Origin: an uncultured Bacteroidales bacterium
GTDB taxonomy: Bacteria > Bacteroidota > Bacteroidia > Bacteroidales > P3
Direction: 5' to 3'
DNA length: 64,000 nt
NCBI GenBank assembly: GCA_900314725.1
Contig: OMWJ01000006.1
Span: 52,201 to 116,200 of the forward strand
Both the position numbers and the translations under genes were made by a program. Of the stretch, positions 21,903-28,384 are shown in pieces. How positions within the stretch are numbered: the stretch's first letter is position 1; every line of letters starts with the position of its first letter. The notes beneath the pieces are model-generated. The model had not been told where the DNA came from. It made no database searches and saw nothing but the letters and a program-made list of their open reading frames with translations.

Positions 21903-21910
21903 TATCTTTG
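21903..21910 (+). promoter_or_regulatory. promoter of the RNA/GTPase cassette
   Basis: TATCTTTG followed by CAC is an exact TAnnTTTG -7 box in a deeply AT-rich region; transcription would begin near 21916. The -33 box is poor. It is the only clear promoter before the cassette at 22244-27171. Confidence 0.6.
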
Positions 21911-21911
21911 C

Positions 21912-22200
21912 ACTTGTCAATAGTGACATTTCATAACATTAACTATTATTTCTCATTCAAAAAAAGCCTAAGGAACTTCTTTTGATTATATTTCCAGAGA
22001 TATTTTAGTTAAGTAGAGCGTAAAGCTTTTAGAAGAAAAGATCACAACCATTGTTGTATAGTTACATCCCTTATTGATGTAGACTTTCTGTAGGTTGTGT
22101 GGGTATTCTTCCTTAGGCTTTACCCGAATGAGAATAGAAAAGTTTACATCTTTTTATTCCCGAACGTTCTAAATGTTATGACATATTAATTATCTAATAT
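21912..22200 (+). ncRNA. candidate structured RNA or long structured leader
   Basis: Nested complementary segments span this stretch: tcataacatt (21931-21940) with aatgttatga (22172-22181); tctcattc (21952-21959) with gaatgaga (22126-22133); a 13-bp perfect helix aaagcctaaggaa (21963-21975) with ttccttaggcttt (22109-22121); inside it cacaacc (22043-22049) with ggttgtg (22093-22099) and a terminal hairpin tacatc/gatgta (22063-22081). No reading frame of note. It could be an independent RNA (a 6S-like RNA is one option), a cassette-specific RNA, or a regulatory 5' UTR of the gene at 22244. No tmRNA, RNase P or SRP signature is present, and no T-run terminator separates it from the gene. Confidence 0.55.
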
Positions 22201-22243
22201 TTAAAAGCGATGTGCTTGATGCAATAACTAAGCAGAGAATGAT

Positions 22244-22561
22244 ATGAGTAAAAACTATTTAGAAACAGAGATTAAAAGATTTTTTGACAAACCTAAAAAT
22301 GTAGGTTGTCTAATTTTGATTATTCTGTCTATTGTTATTGTCATTATAACAGACCTTTGTGATGGAAATTCTTCATCTAATCTTAAATTTGGAGATTATG
22401 GAATTGTTACTACTGAAACTTTCGGTCGTATAGACAAGAGTACTATAGATGAATTAGGTAGATATACAACCGCAAATGATAAAATAGGAATACTGCAACT
22501 TATGTATGAGGGACGAGTTGATATTATTAAAGCTGGCACAAGAGTAAACAAGTTAGTTTAA
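22244..22561 (+). CDS. small single-pass membrane protein (cassette gene 1)
   Basis: Unrecognised 105-residue protein. A cytoplasmic basic N-terminus (residues 1-19) precedes one transmembrane helix (VGCLILIILSIVIVIITDL, ~20-38), then a ~65-residue soluble domain ending in a beta-rich segment (MYEGRVDIIKAGTRVNKLV) that resembles a small SH3-like barrel. It is first in the six-gene cassette, 43 nt after the structured RNA region and 157 nt before the next gene; that gap holds no ORF. Possibly a sensor or anchor subunit; no function can be assigned. Confidence 0.7.
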   Translation: MSKNYLETEIKRFFDKPKNVGCLILIILSIVIVIITDLCDGNSSSNLKFGDYGIVTTETFGRIDKSTIDELGRYTTANDKIGILQLMYEGRVDIIKAGTRVNKLV

Positions 22562-22718
22562 CGTAGGAGCGAGAACACCACAAGGAAGTGCTTTATGGAT
22601 TGTTTCCTCTCATATCTGGAAAGAATAAATTGTATTATTAAGTAAATTATATTATTGACTATATAAATATACAAAATCCTTTATCAAGATTTATAAACAA
22701 TAAAAAAATAGAATCAAA

Positions 22719-23774
22719 ATGAACGAACAGAACAAAATCTTTAGAATTATTAGTGCAGTACTATTCTTGGCATTTGCATTAGTCAGTTGCTGGGCGACAG
22801 TGGAATCTCTTTATTTGTCCTTACCTGAAATACCTAAAATAGTGTTTTGGGTTGCAGTAATAGGAATCTTTCTTCTAACCTCCTACCTAACCAAGATATT
22901 GGTTAATTGTTTCAATCCAAATATTTATATGGAGAAAAGAGGTATAAAACTTATTGGATGTATTCTTGGAGTACTACTATTATGGTTGAATTTTTCCATG
23001 CCGACAAACACGCATACTTTCTTTTATAAGAAGATGTCAAAAGATATAGCAAAGAGAGAGTTGAATTTTTTAAATGTAGAACTTTCAAAACTCACTGATG
23101 AAAATCTTTACATTCTGAATTATAATAATGAATGGGAAAAGAAAAAATCAAAAGTCTTGAGTCTTCAAAAAGTTTATGAAGCAGAAGTGGATGATTTTCA
23201 AAAACTGGGACATGGCAAAGAAGCAGAAGAGAAATTACAGAAAATAGAAGATGAATTAGGTCTAAAACGAGGTACATTGGAACGCAAATCTCCAAATGGT
23301 AATGGAACACAAGAAAGGACTGCAATAAAAAAGTATTATGATAATCAAATAAAAGACCAACTGGAAGTCCTTCGTAGAGATCATGAAGCAAGACTACAAA
23401 GCCAATTAAAGGGGTTCAGGTCTGAGGCAAATAAAATAAACAACATAAAAAACAATATCAGCAGGACACTTGATGAGATTGATAATCCTTTATTAAAATC
23501 CTCTGAAGTTATAGACAAAGCAACAAAATTAGCACAAACAGGACGTGCTACACTTGATGCAAAATATGGATACCTAACGGTTGATCCATCATACAAGAAT
23601 CAAAGTGTTTATTCATTAGACAGATTAAAGAGTATTACAAAAGTATGGGGAGATTATTTGTCAGGAGAATTTAAAGACAAGAACTATGGACTCATCTATT
23701 GGATACTGCTTTCAATTATTGTAGATTTAGCAGCATTCTTATTTTTTAACATTGCATTTAAATCAGAAGAATAG
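22719..23774 (+). CDS. multi-pass membrane protein with long helical domain (cassette gene 2)
   Basis: Unrecognised 351-residue protein. Three hydrophobic helices fall in residues ~10-32, 40-62 and 77-95, followed by a ~225-residue charged, largely helical and partly coiled-coil domain (Lys/Glu-rich, residues 100-320), then a final transmembrane helix (~322-345, IYWILLSIIVDLAAFLFFNI). Such an arrangement suits an extracytoplasmic or cytoplasmic sensor held between membrane anchors. Separated by 28 nt from the GTPase gene, so cotranscribed. Confidence 0.75.
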   Translation: MNEQNKIFRIISAVLFLAFALVSCWATVESLYLSLPEIPKIVFWVAVIGIFLLTSYLTKILVNCFNPNIYMEKRGIKLIGCILGVLLLWLNFSMPTNTHTFFYKKMSKDIAKRELNFLNVELSKLTDENLYILNYNNEWEKKKSKVLSLQKVYEAEVDDFQKLGHGKEAEEKLQKIEDELGLKRGTLERKSPNGNGTQERTAIKKYYDNQIKDQLEVLRRDHEARLQSQLKGFRSEANKINNIKNNISRTLDEIDNPLLKSSEVIDKATKLAQTGRATLDAKYGYLTVDPSYKNQSVYSLDRLKSITKVWGDYLSGEFKDKNYGLIYWILLSIIVDLAAFLFFNIAFKSEE

Positions 23775-23802
23775 TTAATCAAAAAAATAAAAATATAATA
23801 TT

Positions 23803-24786
23803 ATGCCAGAAATAGAAATACCAAATTTAAATTCAGAAGTTAGTGTTAGAGAAAAAGTTTTACCTGACAATAACGAAAAAATAAATAATCTTCCACAAGA
23901 AGAGGACTTTTCTAAAAGGAATGAAGATTCTGTACAACATATCATCAACCCTTTGGATAATGAAGATAAAATACCGCAGTCAAAGGAATATGATGGATAT
24001 AACGACATAACCATTACAATAAAAGATAGCAAAACACCAATAGTTGTACTATTTGGCCCTAAATCATGTGGAAAAACAATGACTCTTGTAAGATTATCTC
24101 GTTATCTCAAAAAGAATGGTTATGTTATTACTCCTGACAAAACATTCAGAGATTCTAAAGATGAGCATTACAAGCAAATGTGCTATGAATTTCCTAATAT
24201 GATAAACGCGAACAATGCTGCAAGTTCAACTAACCTTATCAGTTTTATGCTTGCTAAAGTTATTAAGGATGGAAGTACAAAATGTCAGATATTAGAGGCT
24301 CCCGGTGAGTTATATTTCGATGAAGACAACCCCGATAAAGAATTTCCTACTTATCTTAACCAGATAACGACATGTAATAACAGAAAGATATGGATATTCA
24401 TGCTTGAGCCAAATTGGAAAAACACTAAGGACAGAGAAAACTATGTAGATAGAATTACTAAATTTTCCAAACAAATAAAGCCTCGTGATAAAGTAATTTT
24501 ATTAATGAATAAAGTTGATAAAGCAGATGGCTTGGTTCTTAATATGGGAACTATTAAATACTCTTCTTTACTAAAAGAAATAAAAGACAGTTATCCTGGA
24601 ATATTAAAACCTTTTGAAAATAAAATACCTATCAGTAATTGGTTTGAAGAGTATAGATGTAAAATAGTTCCTTTCCAAACTGGTTTATTCAGCAAAACAA
24701 GTAGCGGAAAATTAAAATTTACAAAAAGCGATGACATATATCCGAAAAAACTTTGGAACGTAATCAAAAAAATAGTGAAAGGATAA
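23803..24786 (+). CDS. P-loop GTPase (cassette gene 3)
   Basis: A 327-residue soluble protein with a disordered acidic N-terminal ~75 residues, then a GTPase domain: Walker A GPKSCGKTMT at ~84-93, a Walker B/DxxG-equivalent ILEAPGE at ~167, and a G4 motif LMNKVDKAD (NKxD) near residue 238, which specifies guanine. No transmembrane segment. This resembles TRAFAC-type GTPases that computational surveys place in multi-gene prokaryotic conflict systems with GAP-like partners; assignment to a named subfamily would need a profile search. It lies 4 nt before the gene for the coiled-coil tail-anchored protein, indicating tight coupling. Confidence 0.82.
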   Translation: MPEIEIPNLNSEVSVREKVLPDNNEKINNLPQEEDFSKRNEDSVQHIINPLDNEDKIPQSKEYDGYNDITITIKDSKTPIVVLFGPKSCGKTMTLVRLSRYLKKNGYVITPDKTFRDSKDEHYKQMCYEFPNMINANNAASSTNLISFMLAKVIKDGSTKCQILEAPGELYFDEDNPDKEFPTYLNQITTCNNRKIWIFMLEPNWKNTKDRENYVDRITKFSKQIKPRDKVILLMNKVDKADGLVLNMGTIKYSSLLKEIKDSYPGILKPFENKIPISNWFEEYRCKIVPFQTGLFSKTSSGKLKFTKSDDIYPKKLWNVIKKIVKG

Positions 24787-24790
24787 GAGT

Positions 24791-25861
24791 ATGAATATAG
24801 AAGTTTATTTGCATGGCGTACCTGCTGGTTTTAAATCTTTATCAAAAGACAGCGACAAGCAATACCTTGAGGATTTCTATGGAAGTAATAAAATAAATGT
24901 AAATACAGGAATCGTCATAGAAAAAAGAAAAAAGAGTATCTATTACACATTTCTAAGAAATAACCTTATAGCAAATGATGGTCGCAACGGTTCTTATCTT
25001 GGTTTGACTCTTCGCTTGGATGATATGTTTTGTGAAGATGTGGAAGGTATTTATACCCTTCTCTCTACAATATTTAGAGAATATATTATAGGAAGCATTA
25101 TTAAAGACAACAAATACTTAGTAACCGATTTTAACGAAGAGAAAAGAAAAAATATTGAAGAATATATCATTAAGGAAATACAAGAAAAGTTTCCACGCTA
25201 CCTAAAAGCAATAGATAACAGCTTTTCTAACCAACGAGGAAATGTTTTAAACCAGAACATTTTGGAAATAAGCAATAAAAGTATTATTTCCATACTGAAA
25301 AAGAATCTTATTATTTGTCTTTCAGAAGAATATCCAACAATAGATGATAAAATAAAAACTATAGACAGGCAACTACAAATTTCTAAAAGTGAAAATATAG
25401 AAATATCAAACAAATTAAAAGCACTGCAAAATCAAAATAATGAATTAGAGATAAGAAATAATGAATTAAGAGAGAATAACAGACGATTGCAAAATCAAAA
25501 GAATTTTCAAGATAATGTTCACAATATAGAACAACCAATACAAGAAGTGGCAGACTATCTTAGAGAAAGAAGAATTACCAAGGAAAAAGGTATCTCCATA
25601 AAACAGGTATTTATAATAGTTATTGTAATATTATTGGGCATAAACGTATTTATGTTTTGTAAATTCAACAAAACTCTAAACGAAATTAAAACAAATACAA
25701 CTGCTCCTACTGAAGAAATAAACACTAATGATAGAAATAGCGAAGAAGAAGTTTCTAAAACAATTGATACAAAATTAAATCAAAAGGATAGTATAAGTAA
25801 AAATGCAAAAGATACTGCAACAAATAATAATCAAAATGCAAAAGAAACTAAGACTAAATAA
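24791..25861 (+). CDS. coiled-coil tail-anchored partner protein (cassette gene 4)
   Basis: A 356-residue protein: an N-terminal domain (residues 1-170) containing YLGLTLRLDDMF and a VEGIYTLLSTIF helix, a Gln/Asn/Glu-rich coiled coil (~190-245), one transmembrane helix (VFIIVIVILLGINVFMF, ~272-290), and a Thr/Asn/Lys-rich low-complexity tail. The N-terminal domain is visibly related to that of cassette gene 6, which makes these two tandem paralogues with different tails. Being 4 nt after the GTPase, it is the best candidate for that protein's regulator or effector. Its 3' end overlaps gene 5. Confidence 0.75.
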   Translation: MNIEVYLHGVPAGFKSLSKDSDKQYLEDFYGSNKINVNTGIVIEKRKKSIYYTFLRNNLIANDGRNGSYLGLTLRLDDMFCEDVEGIYTLLSTIFREYIIGSIIKDNKYLVTDFNEEKRKNIEEYIIKEIQEKFPRYLKAIDNSFSNQRGNVLNQNILEISNKSIISILKKNLIICLSEEYPTIDDKIKTIDRQLQISKSENIEISNKLKALQNQNNELEIRNNELRENNRRLQNQKNFQDNVHNIEQPIQEVADYLRERRITKEKGISIKQVFIIVIVILLGINVFMFCKFNKTLNEIKTNTTAPTEEINTNDRNSEEEVSKTIDTKLNQKDSISKNAKDTATNNNQNAKETKTK

Positions 25862-26372
25862 GAGATTAATCTTATTATCTTTGATTATTACATTATTGTT
25901 TTCATGTTCGACAAAAGAATCTCCTTCGGCTATAACATACAGCTCTGATAGTATTGATAATGAAGACAGTTCAAATGTAGTTGAAATTCCATTCAAAGAA
26001 AATAAAGGCATTAGGATTATTCCTGTAACAATTAATGGAGTAAATATGGATATGATTTTTGACACAGGGGCTTCAACAACTTGTATTTCTTTGACAGAGG
26101 CCTTATTCCTTTTAAAAAATGGCATGCTTAAAGAAGAAGATATAATAGGCACAAGTTCTTCCCAAATTGCAGACGGAAGCATTACAAAAGATACTAAAAT
26201 CATTCTTCGGGAAGTAGTATTGGATAATAAAATCACATTTACCAATGTACAAGCAAGTGTTGTCCATTCTATGAATGCTCCTCTGCTTTTAGGAAATGCT
26301 GACATTTTAGATAAAGTTGCCTCTTTTAAAATAGATAATGAAAACAAAACAATAAAATTCACATTAAAATAA
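25836..26372 (+). CDS. retropepsin-like aspartic protease, predicted lipoprotein (cassette gene 5)
   Basis: A ~178-residue protein. An N-terminal hydrophobic stretch ends in LLFSC, a lipoprotein cleavage and acylation site. The domain from residue ~55 on is a single-chain retropepsin fold: catalytic MIFDTGASTTCIS (DTGA), a flap-like central region, and the conserved second hydrophobic loop PLLLGNADIL. Bacterial members act as homodimers. I chose the ATG at 25836 because it starts directly before the signal; an earlier in-frame ATG (25803) adds 11 odd residues. It overlaps gene 4 by 26 nt and gene 6 begins 1 nt after its stop. Confidence 0.83.
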   Translation: MQKKLRLNKRLILLSLIITLLFSCSTKESPSAITYSSDSIDNEDSSNVVEIPFKENKGIRIIPVTINGVNMDMIFDTGASTTCISLTEALFLLKNGMLKEEDIIGTSSSQIADGSITKDTKIILREVVLDNKITFTNVQASVVHSMNAPLLLGNADILDKVASFKIDNENKTIKFTLK

Positions 26373-26373
26373 T

Positions 26374-27171
26374 ATGAATTTTGATTTTTATATATTTCTT
26401 AGAGACAATAAGAATCACTACTACCAATACATATACGATTCTACGAAAGATATTTTTCAGAATATAGATATTAAATCCCAGGAACAATTATCCATATTCC
26501 ACGAGGATTCTTTGGTATATTATATCTACACTAAACAAAGGAAGGATGGCTATTTAGGATTTTGTATAGTATTCAATAAAGCAATATTTACCGATTTCAA
26601 TATTTTATACAATTTATTTAGGGCAATAGAATATGACCTTAGATTAAAAGATGCAGTCATTATAGAAAAACTGGTTGATATTTGGACAAACACAATAGAA
26701 ATAACATTAAAACTCAATAAAAAGAAATTTGTTGAATGCGGTAAAACAACGTATAATCTTATTAATGATAAAGACAACAACGAAAAAATATTTGACACAT
26801 CCGGCATCTCAACAAATAAACACCTTAAGATTAGTGCTATTACTAAAGCTATTAAACAATATCAATGGGTTTATATTTTGAGAGAAGAAGATATAATAAA
26901 GACAACATCCGATGTAAAAAGCAATGTTAAGAACAATAAAAAATCCAGAGTTGTCCTTGCCATAAAAAAAATATTCATATTATTCATATTATTCATATTA
27001 ATCGTATTATCTGTAGGTCTGTTGGTATTGTTTTTGTGGATAGGCCACATTAAGACAACGACGGAAGCGTTTGTTATAGGCGGGTTGATATTGATTGGGG
27101 GGTTGATAGACTGGTTGATATTGATTGGGTGGTTGATAGACAGGTTGAAAGACTGGTGGAACTCATTATAG
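26374..27171 (+). CDS. membrane protein with gene-4-like N-terminal domain (cassette gene 6)
   Basis: A 265-residue protein. Residues ~45-95 (VYYIYTKQRKDGYLGFCIV and ILYNLFRAIEYDL) align by eye with the gene 4 N-terminal domain (YYTFLRN and GSYLGLTLRL, IYTLLSTIFREYI). Two hydrophobic segments end the protein (~190-215 and ~222-250). The 3' end of the DNA holds a tandem repeat of ~30 nt encoding repeated LILIGGLID-type residues. Unrecognised family; last gene of the cassette. Confidence 0.7.
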   Translation: MNFDFYIFLRDNKNHYYQYIYDSTKDIFQNIDIKSQEQLSIFHEDSLVYYIYTKQRKDGYLGFCIVFNKAIFTDFNILYNLFRAIEYDLRLKDAVIIEKLVDIWTNTIEITLKLNKKKFVECGKTTYNLINDKDNNEKIFDTSGISTNKHLKISAITKAIKQYQWVYILREEDIIKTTSDVKSNVKNNKKSRVVLAIKKIFILFILFILIVLSVGLLVLFLWIGHIKTTTEAFVIGGLILIGGLIDWLILIGWLIDRLKDWWNSL

Positions 27172-27289: not shown

Positions 27290-27388
27290 AAACTCTTCGT
27301 TTTAATTTAAAAAGACGAAGAGTTTTATATATAAAAACGAAGAATTTAGAAATTAAAACGAAGAGTTTAGAAATTAAAATCAAGAGTT
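27290..27388. repeat. 21-nt repeats with inverted copies
   Basis: Units aaaacgaagaatttagaaatt, aaaacgaagagtttagaaatt and aaaatcaagagttttt follow one another (21-nt period), preceded by an inverted copy pair (aactcttcgtttt / aagacgaagagtt). The same core occurs near 13520-13620 and 39837-39890. It sits in the 208-bp space between cassette gene 6 and the convergent acyl-CoA reductase and overlaps that gene's 3' end slightly. Confidence 0.75.
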
Positions 27389-28384
27389 TTTTAGGAAAGA
27401 TATGGTGTCTATATTGTCGGCGTAATCATCTATCTCTGGAGACTGTGCCTTGCCAAAAGGAATGGTCTTTATTTCTCTTGAAAAGTCAAATCTGCCTGCA
27501 ACAATGCATTGCAACTCATCGTGTTTTTCAACAATAAAATCTTCTACTTCTTTCTTATTTTCGTAGAAACAGTAATTCACAACACTTATAGGACAATGTA
27601 ATTCTTTAGAATTTTGTAACAGATAAAAGCCACCGTCAAGCATGTTGATATTATTCATCTGAAAAACAGCATGGTAATAGTCATAATTATTTTTATATTT
27701 GTGGAAATCAATCAAGAAGGAGTATTTCTTAAACCTATTCTTTAACCATTCTATATCAAAACCTAATGGCAGAAACAACAGTGAAACATTCCTACATCCC
27801 AAGCCCATATACATAAAAACATCATCTTCTATTCCCGATATATCATCATCCTTTTTGTCTATAACAGCAATAGAGGCACGGCTTTTGCGAATAATATGAG
27901 GATATTTCTTGAAATAAGACTCAAAATACAATGAACTGTTATTGCTACCTGTTGCAATCACAAGATCAAAGTCTTTTATCTTATCAACAAAACGAACAGG
28001 CAATTCAGTTTTTTCGCTCATTCTGTTTATAAGGAAAGGGATTATGACCTTATCATTGGAAGATAACTTAACTTGAAGACTGCAATTAGACAAAAGACCG
28101 CAAAGGATGTCATGAAAACCGACTGCAGGGATATTACCAGCACAAATTATAGCAAGGTTTTTCTGCTTTTTGTTTTCTTCATATTTAGCTACAAAATCGT
28201 GCAACTCCTTTTTCTCCAACCAAGGAAGAAACTGCTTTAAGGAATATTGTATATTCTCTTTCAAAAACCACGCATTCCCCTGTTGTGCCTTAATATACAT
28301 AGACAAGTATGGTTCCTTGTCAATATTCTCTCTTATATCCTCTCCTAAAAAAGACAGTCTTTCTATTATTTCTTCTTTCTTCAT
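27380..28384 (-). CDS. acyl-CoA reductase (LuxC-related)
   Basis: A ~334-residue aldehyde-dehydrogenase-superfamily protein of the LuxC-like acyl-CoA reductase type common in Bacteroidota. Visible parts: AIICAGNIPAVGFHDIL (Rossmann loop), DLVIATGSNNSS, and the catalytic-cysteine region GLGCRNVSLLFLP. It would reduce an acyl-CoA or acyl group to an aldehyde with NADPH. Earlier in-frame starts (TTG 28402, ATG 28393) lie at or in a promoter-like sequence, so I chose the ATG at 28384. Confidence 0.8.
   Translation of the reverse strand: MKKEEIIERLSFLGEDIRENIDKEPYLSMYIKAQQGNAWFLKENIQYSLKQFLPWLEKKELHDFVAKYEENKKQKNLAIICAGNIPAVGFHDILCGLLSNCSLQVKLSSNDKVIIPFLINRMSEKTELPVRFVDKIKDFDLVIATGSNNSSLYFESYFKKYPHIIRKSRASIAVIDKKDDDISGIEDDVFMYMGLGCRNVSLLFLPLGFDIEWLKNRFKKYSFLIDFHKYKNNYDYYHAVFQMNNINMLDGGFYLLQNSKELHCPISVVNYCFYENKKEVEDFIVEKHDELQCIVAGRFDFSREIKTIPFGKAQSPEIDDYADNIDTISFLKNS

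Follow-up and report, generated by a model that had tools for sequence, protein, structure and literature searches.

Riboswitches and other structured mRNA leaders are the described elements most akin to the RNA reported here, which lies in a 64,000-nucleotide stretch of DNA from an uncultured Bacteroidales bacterium (contig OMWJ01000006.1 of assembly GCA_900314725.1; the whole stretch is called the window) and is followed there by six same-strand genes, among them genes for a GTPase and a retropepsin-like protein. With those leaders, this RNA shares its length, its covarying and pseudoknotted fold, a gene on the same strand downstream, and, in many copies, pairings that compete near the start codon. 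It differs from them in that its clients are unrelated accessory genes, that a genome may hold many copies, that the leader travels with its cargo, and that Rfam offers no match.

The encoded proteins invite comparison with several known modules. The DO-GTPase/GAP1 systems, as set out in part of Kaur et al. 2020 (PMC7159879), likewise feature a TRAFAC-type GTPase with an invariant glutamate in a Walker B-like motif (here LEAPGE), a partner gene directly downstream, and membrane-linked components, whereas the operon described here has one GTPase gene and includes a retropepsin-like protein. Rag/Gtr GTPases share with the third gene product of the window a predicted small-GTPase fold with a P-loop and an NKxD motif. 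Compared with the Rag/Gtr proteins and their longin regulators (FLCN-FNIP and GATOR1), however, identity is only ≈6 to 17%, other small GTPases score within 1 to 2 Z, and the alignment covers approximately residues 1 to 184 of chains of ≈290 residues, the gene 3 model stopping at that point, after its G domain, without the C-terminal roadblock-type domain. MglA-MglB, in the partial accounts that we draw on, also pairs a bacterial small GTPase with a small partner regulator; here, in contrast, the partner is longin-like rather than roadblock, and a membrane coiled-coil protein and a protease are added. Finally, the clan AA aspartic proteases of TIGR02281 share the DTGA motif with the fifth gene product, which scores 32.6 bits to that model but falls below its cut-off of 57.95 and is fixed in an operon with a GTPase.

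We interpret the locus as a five-gene operon, encoding the GTPase, a predicted longin-like partner, and the retropepsin-like protein, that stands behind a dispersed pseudoknotted RNA which is likely a cis switch of accessory genes, a reading to which we assign a probability of roughly 0.6. The RNA superfamily and the conserved operon are each well supported; we infer the function that would join them.

A dispersed pseudoknotted RNA with compensatory changes

The original prediction, drawn from the sequence alone, described a promoter, a stretch with nested long-range complementarity, and six tightly spaced same-strand genes as one unit. That observation holds and is larger than first reported. 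A promoter-like TATCTTTG is present at 21903 to 21910, presumably a "Bacteroidetes-type" −7 promoter, and most copies of the RNA in the same genus have TTTGCA at the equivalent position; a consensus promoter and terminator scan gave results no better than shuffles. The segment at 21915 to 22200 folds at −67.4 kcal/mol (z = −4.11, with 1 of 200 dinucleotide shuffles equally good), and the six open reading frames (ORFs) lie at 22244 to 27171 as described. All 11 positions of pseudoknot PK2 pair in the window copy, one of them as G-U, and PK2 and hairpin P5 are mutually exclusive because both use one strand (Table 1).

The RNA recurs widely. A DNA search of 61 genomes gave matches in 17 (E ≤ 0.01, up to 12 matches per genome), the weakest of which may be chance. 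From 20 aligned copies we built a model, R1, in which RNAalifold placed 29 pairs, 16 with changes on both sides. Under strict filters, R1 identified 44 copies of what we term class 1 in 14 of 101 relatives and 30 copies in 20 of 393 genomes of the order, the window's own genome and one other (G054) belonging to both sets. The own genome holds a second class-1 copy (G000:C5:33170-33362). This RNA precedes a 1,626-aa Type ISP-like restriction-modification protein, and the same pair occurs in two relatives (G009 and G011).

Covariation was assessed on an alignment, A7, of 69 distinct copies, comprising 43 of the 44 from relatives, 25 of the 26 new ones from the order set, and the locus L168; it excludes L103, whose cargo is identical to that of L102, and a weak partial match, L138. 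The stored structure is paired in 95.8% of cells, with both-side changes in 25 of 29 pairs and a covariation score of 0.478 versus 0.199 for shuffled and at most 0.095 for slid alignments, A7 having been fitted to this structure. Pseudoknot PK1 (helix 4) is paired in 99.3% of cells, and all eight of its pairs show both-side changes. PK2, which lies outside the R1 model, pairs in 90.7% of cells with both-side changes at 9 of 10 pairs, and its covariation of 0.413 exceeds all 500 shuffles (0.292) and the slid controls (≤0.149). Hairpin P3 was tested per sequence, as a column-wise test on A7 is blurred by gaps; its own partners outscore re-paired ones (z 4.4). Class-1 RNA is thus a conserved element with compensatory changes in its structure.

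Searches of Rfam 15 at gathering and permissive thresholds returned no family at or near its cut-off on the leaders of 18 class-1 loci, of 5 GTPase loci with class-2 leaders (described below), or of 20 of 30 class-2 loci. The window RNA likewise had no family at or near cut-off, and with E values up to 10 only a chance 29-nt match upstream of the RNA was listed. With Rfam empty on all leaders tested, we rejected the labels intron, transfer-messenger RNA, and known riboswitch. A phage or plasmid element was also rejected, as the RNA had no blastn match and the GTPase gene no tblastn match in phage and plasmid collections; the class-1 pattern matched seven viral stretches, none with a full-length strong model match (best 25.9 bits). 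The literature searched yielded no description of the RNA or the operon. Novelty rests on Rfam 15 and that literature; a catalogue of 3,161 candidates (PMC8040213) stands outside the comparison and may contain pieces of these RNAs.

A second sequence class with the same topology

The leaders of other GTPase operons were missed by R1 and spotted by eye. Seven of them (L114 to L119 and L225) fold with z scores of −4.25 to −7.55, none of 100 shuffles equaling any one of them, and have 23 pairs in common, 12 with both-side changes. With the model built from these seven, R2, 69 of 120 relatives gave class-2 matches at E ≤ 0.01, the richest genome having 18 copies, but only 6 of 247 phylum-wide genomes did so at E ≤ 1e-4, the own genome included. 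In 33 aligned rows, one of which is a reverse-strand match, 92.0% of cells are paired, and covariation reaches 0.629 versus 0.245 in shuffles. The own-partner scores of P3 and of PK2 each beat 200 of 200 re-pairings (32 rows). In the own genome, class-2 matches lie on contigs C10, C28, and C4 (L256, L262, and L263) by the phylum-wide search, and a fourth came from the R2 search of relatives.

Class-2 elements follow one another as in class 1: first P2 and P3 (which has PK1 in its loop), next a variable stem with P5, and then PK1, P2, PK2, and a U-rich stretch. The clients overlap as well. Among 24 class-2 loci viewed, all non-GTPase loci and a small part of the R2 matches, 10 have a downstream protein with a relative within ≈5 kb behind a class-1 leader. 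Topology and shared clients together suggest that classes 1 and 2 are two sequence classes of one superfamily with a shared ancestry.

The GTPase and retropepsin-like operon

Homologues of the GTPase (gene 3) number 917 proteins at E ≤ 0.001. Its gene occurs in 7 of 101 relatives (nine places), in 3 of 247 order genomes by profile, and on one contig of a viral collection. Homologues scattered without their neighbors, or all the genes falling in a known housekeeping operon, would have counted against the original prediction. We found instead that all 12 loci carry genes 2, 3, 4, and 5 in this order, two of them (L119 and L264) with an additional ORF separating genes 4 and 5. Genes 2, 3, and 5 were identified by sequence at all 12 loci and gene 4 by sequence at nine, the remaining three (L118, L106, and L225) being assigned by place and by the look of the N terminus. 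Next comes a gene-6-like gene, which sequence identifies at some loci; at L115, L116, L118, L106, and L225 the assignment is by place or weak alignment only. The unit had been described as six genes; genes 2 to 6 do recur as an operon, but phmmer searches up to E = 1 turned up nothing related to gene 1 at the other operon loci. There, gene 2 or other small ORFs come after the leader. At L120 and L106, these small ORFs look helix-turn-helix (HTH)-like by eye and lack a Pfam match.

At 9 of 11 readable loci a leader of the superfamily was found 5' of the operon by model, and at one more by eye alone; the twelfth locus, L224, is unreadable in its leader region at a contig end. The RNA is conserved, covarying, and pseudoknotted, and most copies of the operon stand behind this leader or one of equal topology. 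The RNA and the operon had been proposed to form one system. They do recur together, but the RNA also precedes restriction-modification (R-M), surface-protein, and radical-SAM genes. Because the RNA precedes such unrelated cargo, the "system" is better described as the operon plus a general leader, and the many copies elsewhere in the genomes led us to drop the idea that the RNA belongs to the GTPase system alone. In the survey of GTPase gene neighborhoods, the retropepsin gene co-occurs at 12 of 12 loci, and no leader RNA was found at one readable locus, L264.

Gene 3 carries the NKxD motif claimed for it (as NKVD), along with the P-loop GPKSCGKT and a G3-like LEAPGE, whose glutamate, E165, is present in all 79 rows of one alignment and invariant in the 86 rows of another, A5. 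The claim of a DTGA retropepsin lipoprotein in gene 5 is borne out by the DTGA motif and by a Pfam match to gag-asp_proteas (PF13975; 43.4 bits against a cut-off of 28.2), the lipobox being read by eye. The first 59 nt of the gene 5 ORF lie within gene 4, and translation of gene 5 therefore probably begins at an ATG further inside. A domain common to genes 4 and 6 had also been proposed; the N termini do align (A6), but the gene-6 group is only 10 to 19% identical to the window's gene 4, a weak likeness. By predicted fold, gene 3 resembles Rag/Gtr-type small GTPases, and gene 4 appears to have a longin-like domain, a fold seen in the regulators of Rag.

The profile searches that had been suggested placed gene 5 in its Pfam family and listed no DO-GTPase or GAP1 domain up to E = 1. 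By hhalign, gene 3 against one DO-GTPase gave Prob 8.7, and gene 4 against a single GAP1-like protein, itself named GAP1 by its place beside DO-GTPases, gave Prob 0.2. The predicted-fold lists name neither DO-GTPases nor GAP1, which excludes nothing.

The operon is neither a housekeeping set nor a random assembly, and its scattered distribution supports an accessory system. That it should be a fixed envelope or housekeeping module behind an ordinary 5' untranslated region is highly improbable. The constant order of genes 2 to 5 and a membrane location read by eye would suit such a module, but the GTPase occurs in just 7 of 101 and 3 of 247 genomes, a distribution that disfavors it, and the own genome holds two divergent copies of the operon. 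The neighbors vary among loci (G002 and G006 have theirs in common), one copy is integrase-linked, and the RNA precedes unrelated genes. The linked copy (L264; IMGVR_UViG_2630968641_000001, the viral-collection contig) adjoins a tyrosine-type phage integrase; pieces near it look HsdS-like by eye, and the single one scanned had no Pfam match. The own genome's second, divergent operon (L106; G000:C5:50000-69000) is preceded by a class-2-like leader and a small ORF of HTH-like appearance. At L119 (G008:C10), a tRNA and the 3' end of a 16S rRNA immediately precede the operon at the edge of the contig, which may reflect an rrn-linked insertion or an assembly join.

Genes behind the leaders

In all 42 readable class-1 copies of the relatives, which are 43 loci minus one at a contig edge, an ORF on the same strand comes next, 31 to 235 nt from the end of the core, counting ORFs of at least 50 aa that begin with ATG. 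For every one of the 15 R-M loci in this set the distance from core to ATG is 49 to 71 nt, and the spacing is similar in the order set. These regularities bear on whether the RNA is instead a small RNA that acts in trans and is transcribed from a promoter of its own, with the downstream genes as mere neighbors sharing that promoter. Its own promoter motif, its compact 5'-to-3' fold, and the U-rich stretch directly after PK2 in both RNA classes would fit that explanation. We nevertheless consider it unlikely, because the same-strand ORF follows in 42 of 42 copies at the regular R-M spacing just given, the start-codon hairpin of many copies (described below) is continuous with the RNA, and no terminator-like site was found between RNA and gene in the window.

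By Pfam, 32 of 68 class-1 first genes are R-M genes, 15 of 42 in the relatives and 17 of 26 in the order set (25 R1 loci plus L168). Taken as distinct, the former comprise nine EcoRI_methylase, three Type ISP, one HSDR_N, one D12, and one Tsp45I gene (L105); the latter comprise 14 EcoRI_methylase genes and one each of MmeI, N6_N4, and D12. One locus with a ResIII helicase and an HNH domain (L101) was left out of the count. A PADLOC scan of class-1 cargo points toward R-M as well. By way of scale, EcoRI_methylase genes occur at 17 places in 149 order genomes. The gene after the methylase resembles what we take to be DUF262. At one pair of loci (L099 and L104) these DUF262-like genes are 98% identical and the methylases just 46%, suggesting exchange of one part.

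Other class-1 cargo includes acyltransferases, SGNH hydrolases, sulfatases, leucine-rich repeat proteins, subtilases, and radical-SAM clusters. At L069, L082, and L239, a radical-SAM gene is accompanied by a small precursor-like protein, the leader belonging to class 1 in two of the genomes and to class 2 in the third. At L120, L106, L139, L145, L168, and L251, the leader, of one class or the other, is followed first by a small ORF that looks HTH-like by eye (≈63 to 84 aa in those measured), that of L251 being related to those of L168 and L139.

Leaders also stay while genes change. In G006 and G002 the RNA occupies the same site, with leaders 95% identical (A7, gaps counted) and homologous flanks, and the following genes are unrelated, the similarity breaking off at the start codon or slightly 5' of it. 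Elsewhere, too, unrelated genes stand behind near-equal leaders, both in class 1 (L067/L077, 88%; L127/L140, 85%) and in class 2 (L228/L230, 84%; L229/L234, 87%), and the same cargo at different sites is common. Such mobility could mean that the conserved element is a DNA feature, namely a mobile cassette end, a recombination site, or a portable promoter, whose structure is folded single-stranded DNA for integration. The scattered multicopy distribution, the exchange at the start codon between G006 and G002, the same cargo at different sites, and the integrase beside one operon copy all agree with this idea, which we regard as rather improbable. The 42 readable copies all point into a gene, and the transcribed strand carries G-U wobbles (one pair is U-A 21 times and U-G 17 times, another A-U 32 times and G-U 24 times), which RNA would be expected to have and which, on the other strand, would read as A-C mismatches.

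A possible cis switch of accessory genes

In the cis reading, the RNA would be transcribed as the 5' part of the mRNA. Many R-M copies have a hairpin, GATTGATAG...CTATCAATC, that ends a few nucleotides before the ATG, and its first arm can alternatively pair with the RNA 5' GCAT..CTA. A strand near the 3' end of the RNA could thus pair either with its 5' end, closing the RNA, or with the bases just before the start codon, and folding may open or close translation in answer to some signal.

Several observations weigh against this reading. The window copy lacks the start-codon hairpin and has the long closing helix only, so any switch there would have to work otherwise, perhaps by the choice between P5 and PK2; the closing helix P1 itself has modest statistical support (z 2.4). 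In class 2, pairs that change on both sides are no more numerous than in shuffles (141 of 500), and two loci break the pattern of downstream genes, L243 having no ORF within 600 nt and L230 a reverse first ORF of 61 aa. Eight of the nine operon leaders found by model were training copies (the window for R1; L114 to L119 and L225 for R2) and so match by construction, that of L120 (class 2, 42.2 bits) being the only match outside the training sets. The L106 leader, seen by eye, is cut by a masked stretch and has no model match even with filters off, and L264 has no leader by either model, filters off included. As for the cargo, 36 of 68 class-1 first genes are not R-M, and the RNA stands at only 4 of the 17 EcoRI-methylase loci (one of the 17 being near a contig end), for which reason we rejected the RNA as an obligatory part of the EcoRI-methylase system. 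PADLOC, finally, gave no clear match for any of the six genes: genes 1, 4, 5, and 6 had none up to E = 1, and genes 2 and 3 had weak ones, the best (E 1.3e-5) to mad8 over residues 71 to 139 of gene 3.

The original prediction envisaged a relay in which protein 2 or 1 would sense an envelope event, the GTPase would switch, and the protease would cleave at the membrane; to this tentative scheme the predicted folds add a Rag-like GTPase and its longin-like partner. At the protein level, the Rag/Gtr-like GTPase may be regulated by one or more longin-like partners at the inner membrane, with the retropepsin-like lipoprotein acting on the far side. Because the operon is accessory, scattered, and once integrase-linked, it is, by association, most likely a conflict system, anti-phage or anti-competitor. 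More tentatively, and somewhat short of even odds, the leaders may form a cargo-independent superfamily, with at least two classes that are interchangeable, which travels along with horizontally acquired genes, is swapped among them, and responds to one cellular or infection signal; this would make restriction enzymes, surface proteins, radical-SAM peptide clusters, and the Rag-longin-retropepsin module one mobile RNA-controlled regulon.

If so, hundreds of unlinked accessory and defense-like genes of a major gut and rumen order would be under one RNA control point that is listed in no catalogue searched here. How bacteria tame newly acquired restriction enzymes would become testable, and there would be a common handle on the control of mobile, defense-like cargo. 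The operon would further bring together a bacterial GTPase and a partner of predicted longin-like fold, an arrangement known from the Rag/FLCN/GATOR machinery of eukaryotes, and couple them to a retropepsin-like protein whose site of action is probably outside the inner membrane.

Features of the window

Table 1. Elements of the leader RNA and genes of the operon, in window positions.
Feature	Position	Strand	Basis
−7 promoter motif TATCTTTG, 5' of the RNA	21903..21910	+	read from sequence
5' hairpin TGTCA-ATAG-TGACA	21915..21928	+	sequence; same hairpin with altered stem in same-genus copies
Leader RNA with closing helix CATAACAT (21932-21939) / ATGTTATG (22173-22180)	21932..22180	+	sequence, fold
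Class-1 RNA core; R1 match of 159.6 bits (copy belongs to the R1 training set)	21940..22154	+	
Helix P2, 5' strand TTCTCATTC; partner GAATGAGAA at 22127-22135	21950..21958	+	alignment structure
Hairpin P3 (TCAAAA / TTTTGA), PK1 5' strand inside its loop	21957..21985	+	
Pseudoknot PK1, 5' strand AAGCCTAAGGAA; partner TTCCTTAGGCTT at 22109-22120	21964..21975	+	
Hairpin P5 (TACATC / GATGTA), rival of PK2 for the same strand	22063..22081	+	
Pseudoknot PK2, 5' strand GATGTAGACTT; partner AAGTTTACATC at 22140-22150	22076..22086	+	
Gene 1: 105 aa with a single hydrophobic segment; the first gene to follow the RNA	22244..22561	+	segment by eye
Gene 2: 351-aa membrane/coiled-coil protein, conserved operon member	22719..23774	+	membrane segments by eye
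Gene 3: 327-aa TRAFAC-type GTPase, predicted Rag/Gtr/Arf-like fold	23803..24786	+	
Gene 4: 356 aa; longin-like domain predicted at the N terminus; long helices and a hydrophobic segment	24791..25861	+	
Gene 5: DTGA retropepsin-like aspartic protease, lipobox-like LFSC	25803..26372	+	lipobox by eye
Gene 6: 265 aa, N terminus aligned to the gene 4 group, C-terminal hydrophobic segments	26374..27171	+	segments by eye

In an empty-site comparison for the window locus, the sequence of the relatives was too divergent for alignment. Directly 3' of gene 6, at 27290 to 27395, a motif around cgaagagttt is repeated and possibly marks the end of an inserted unit.

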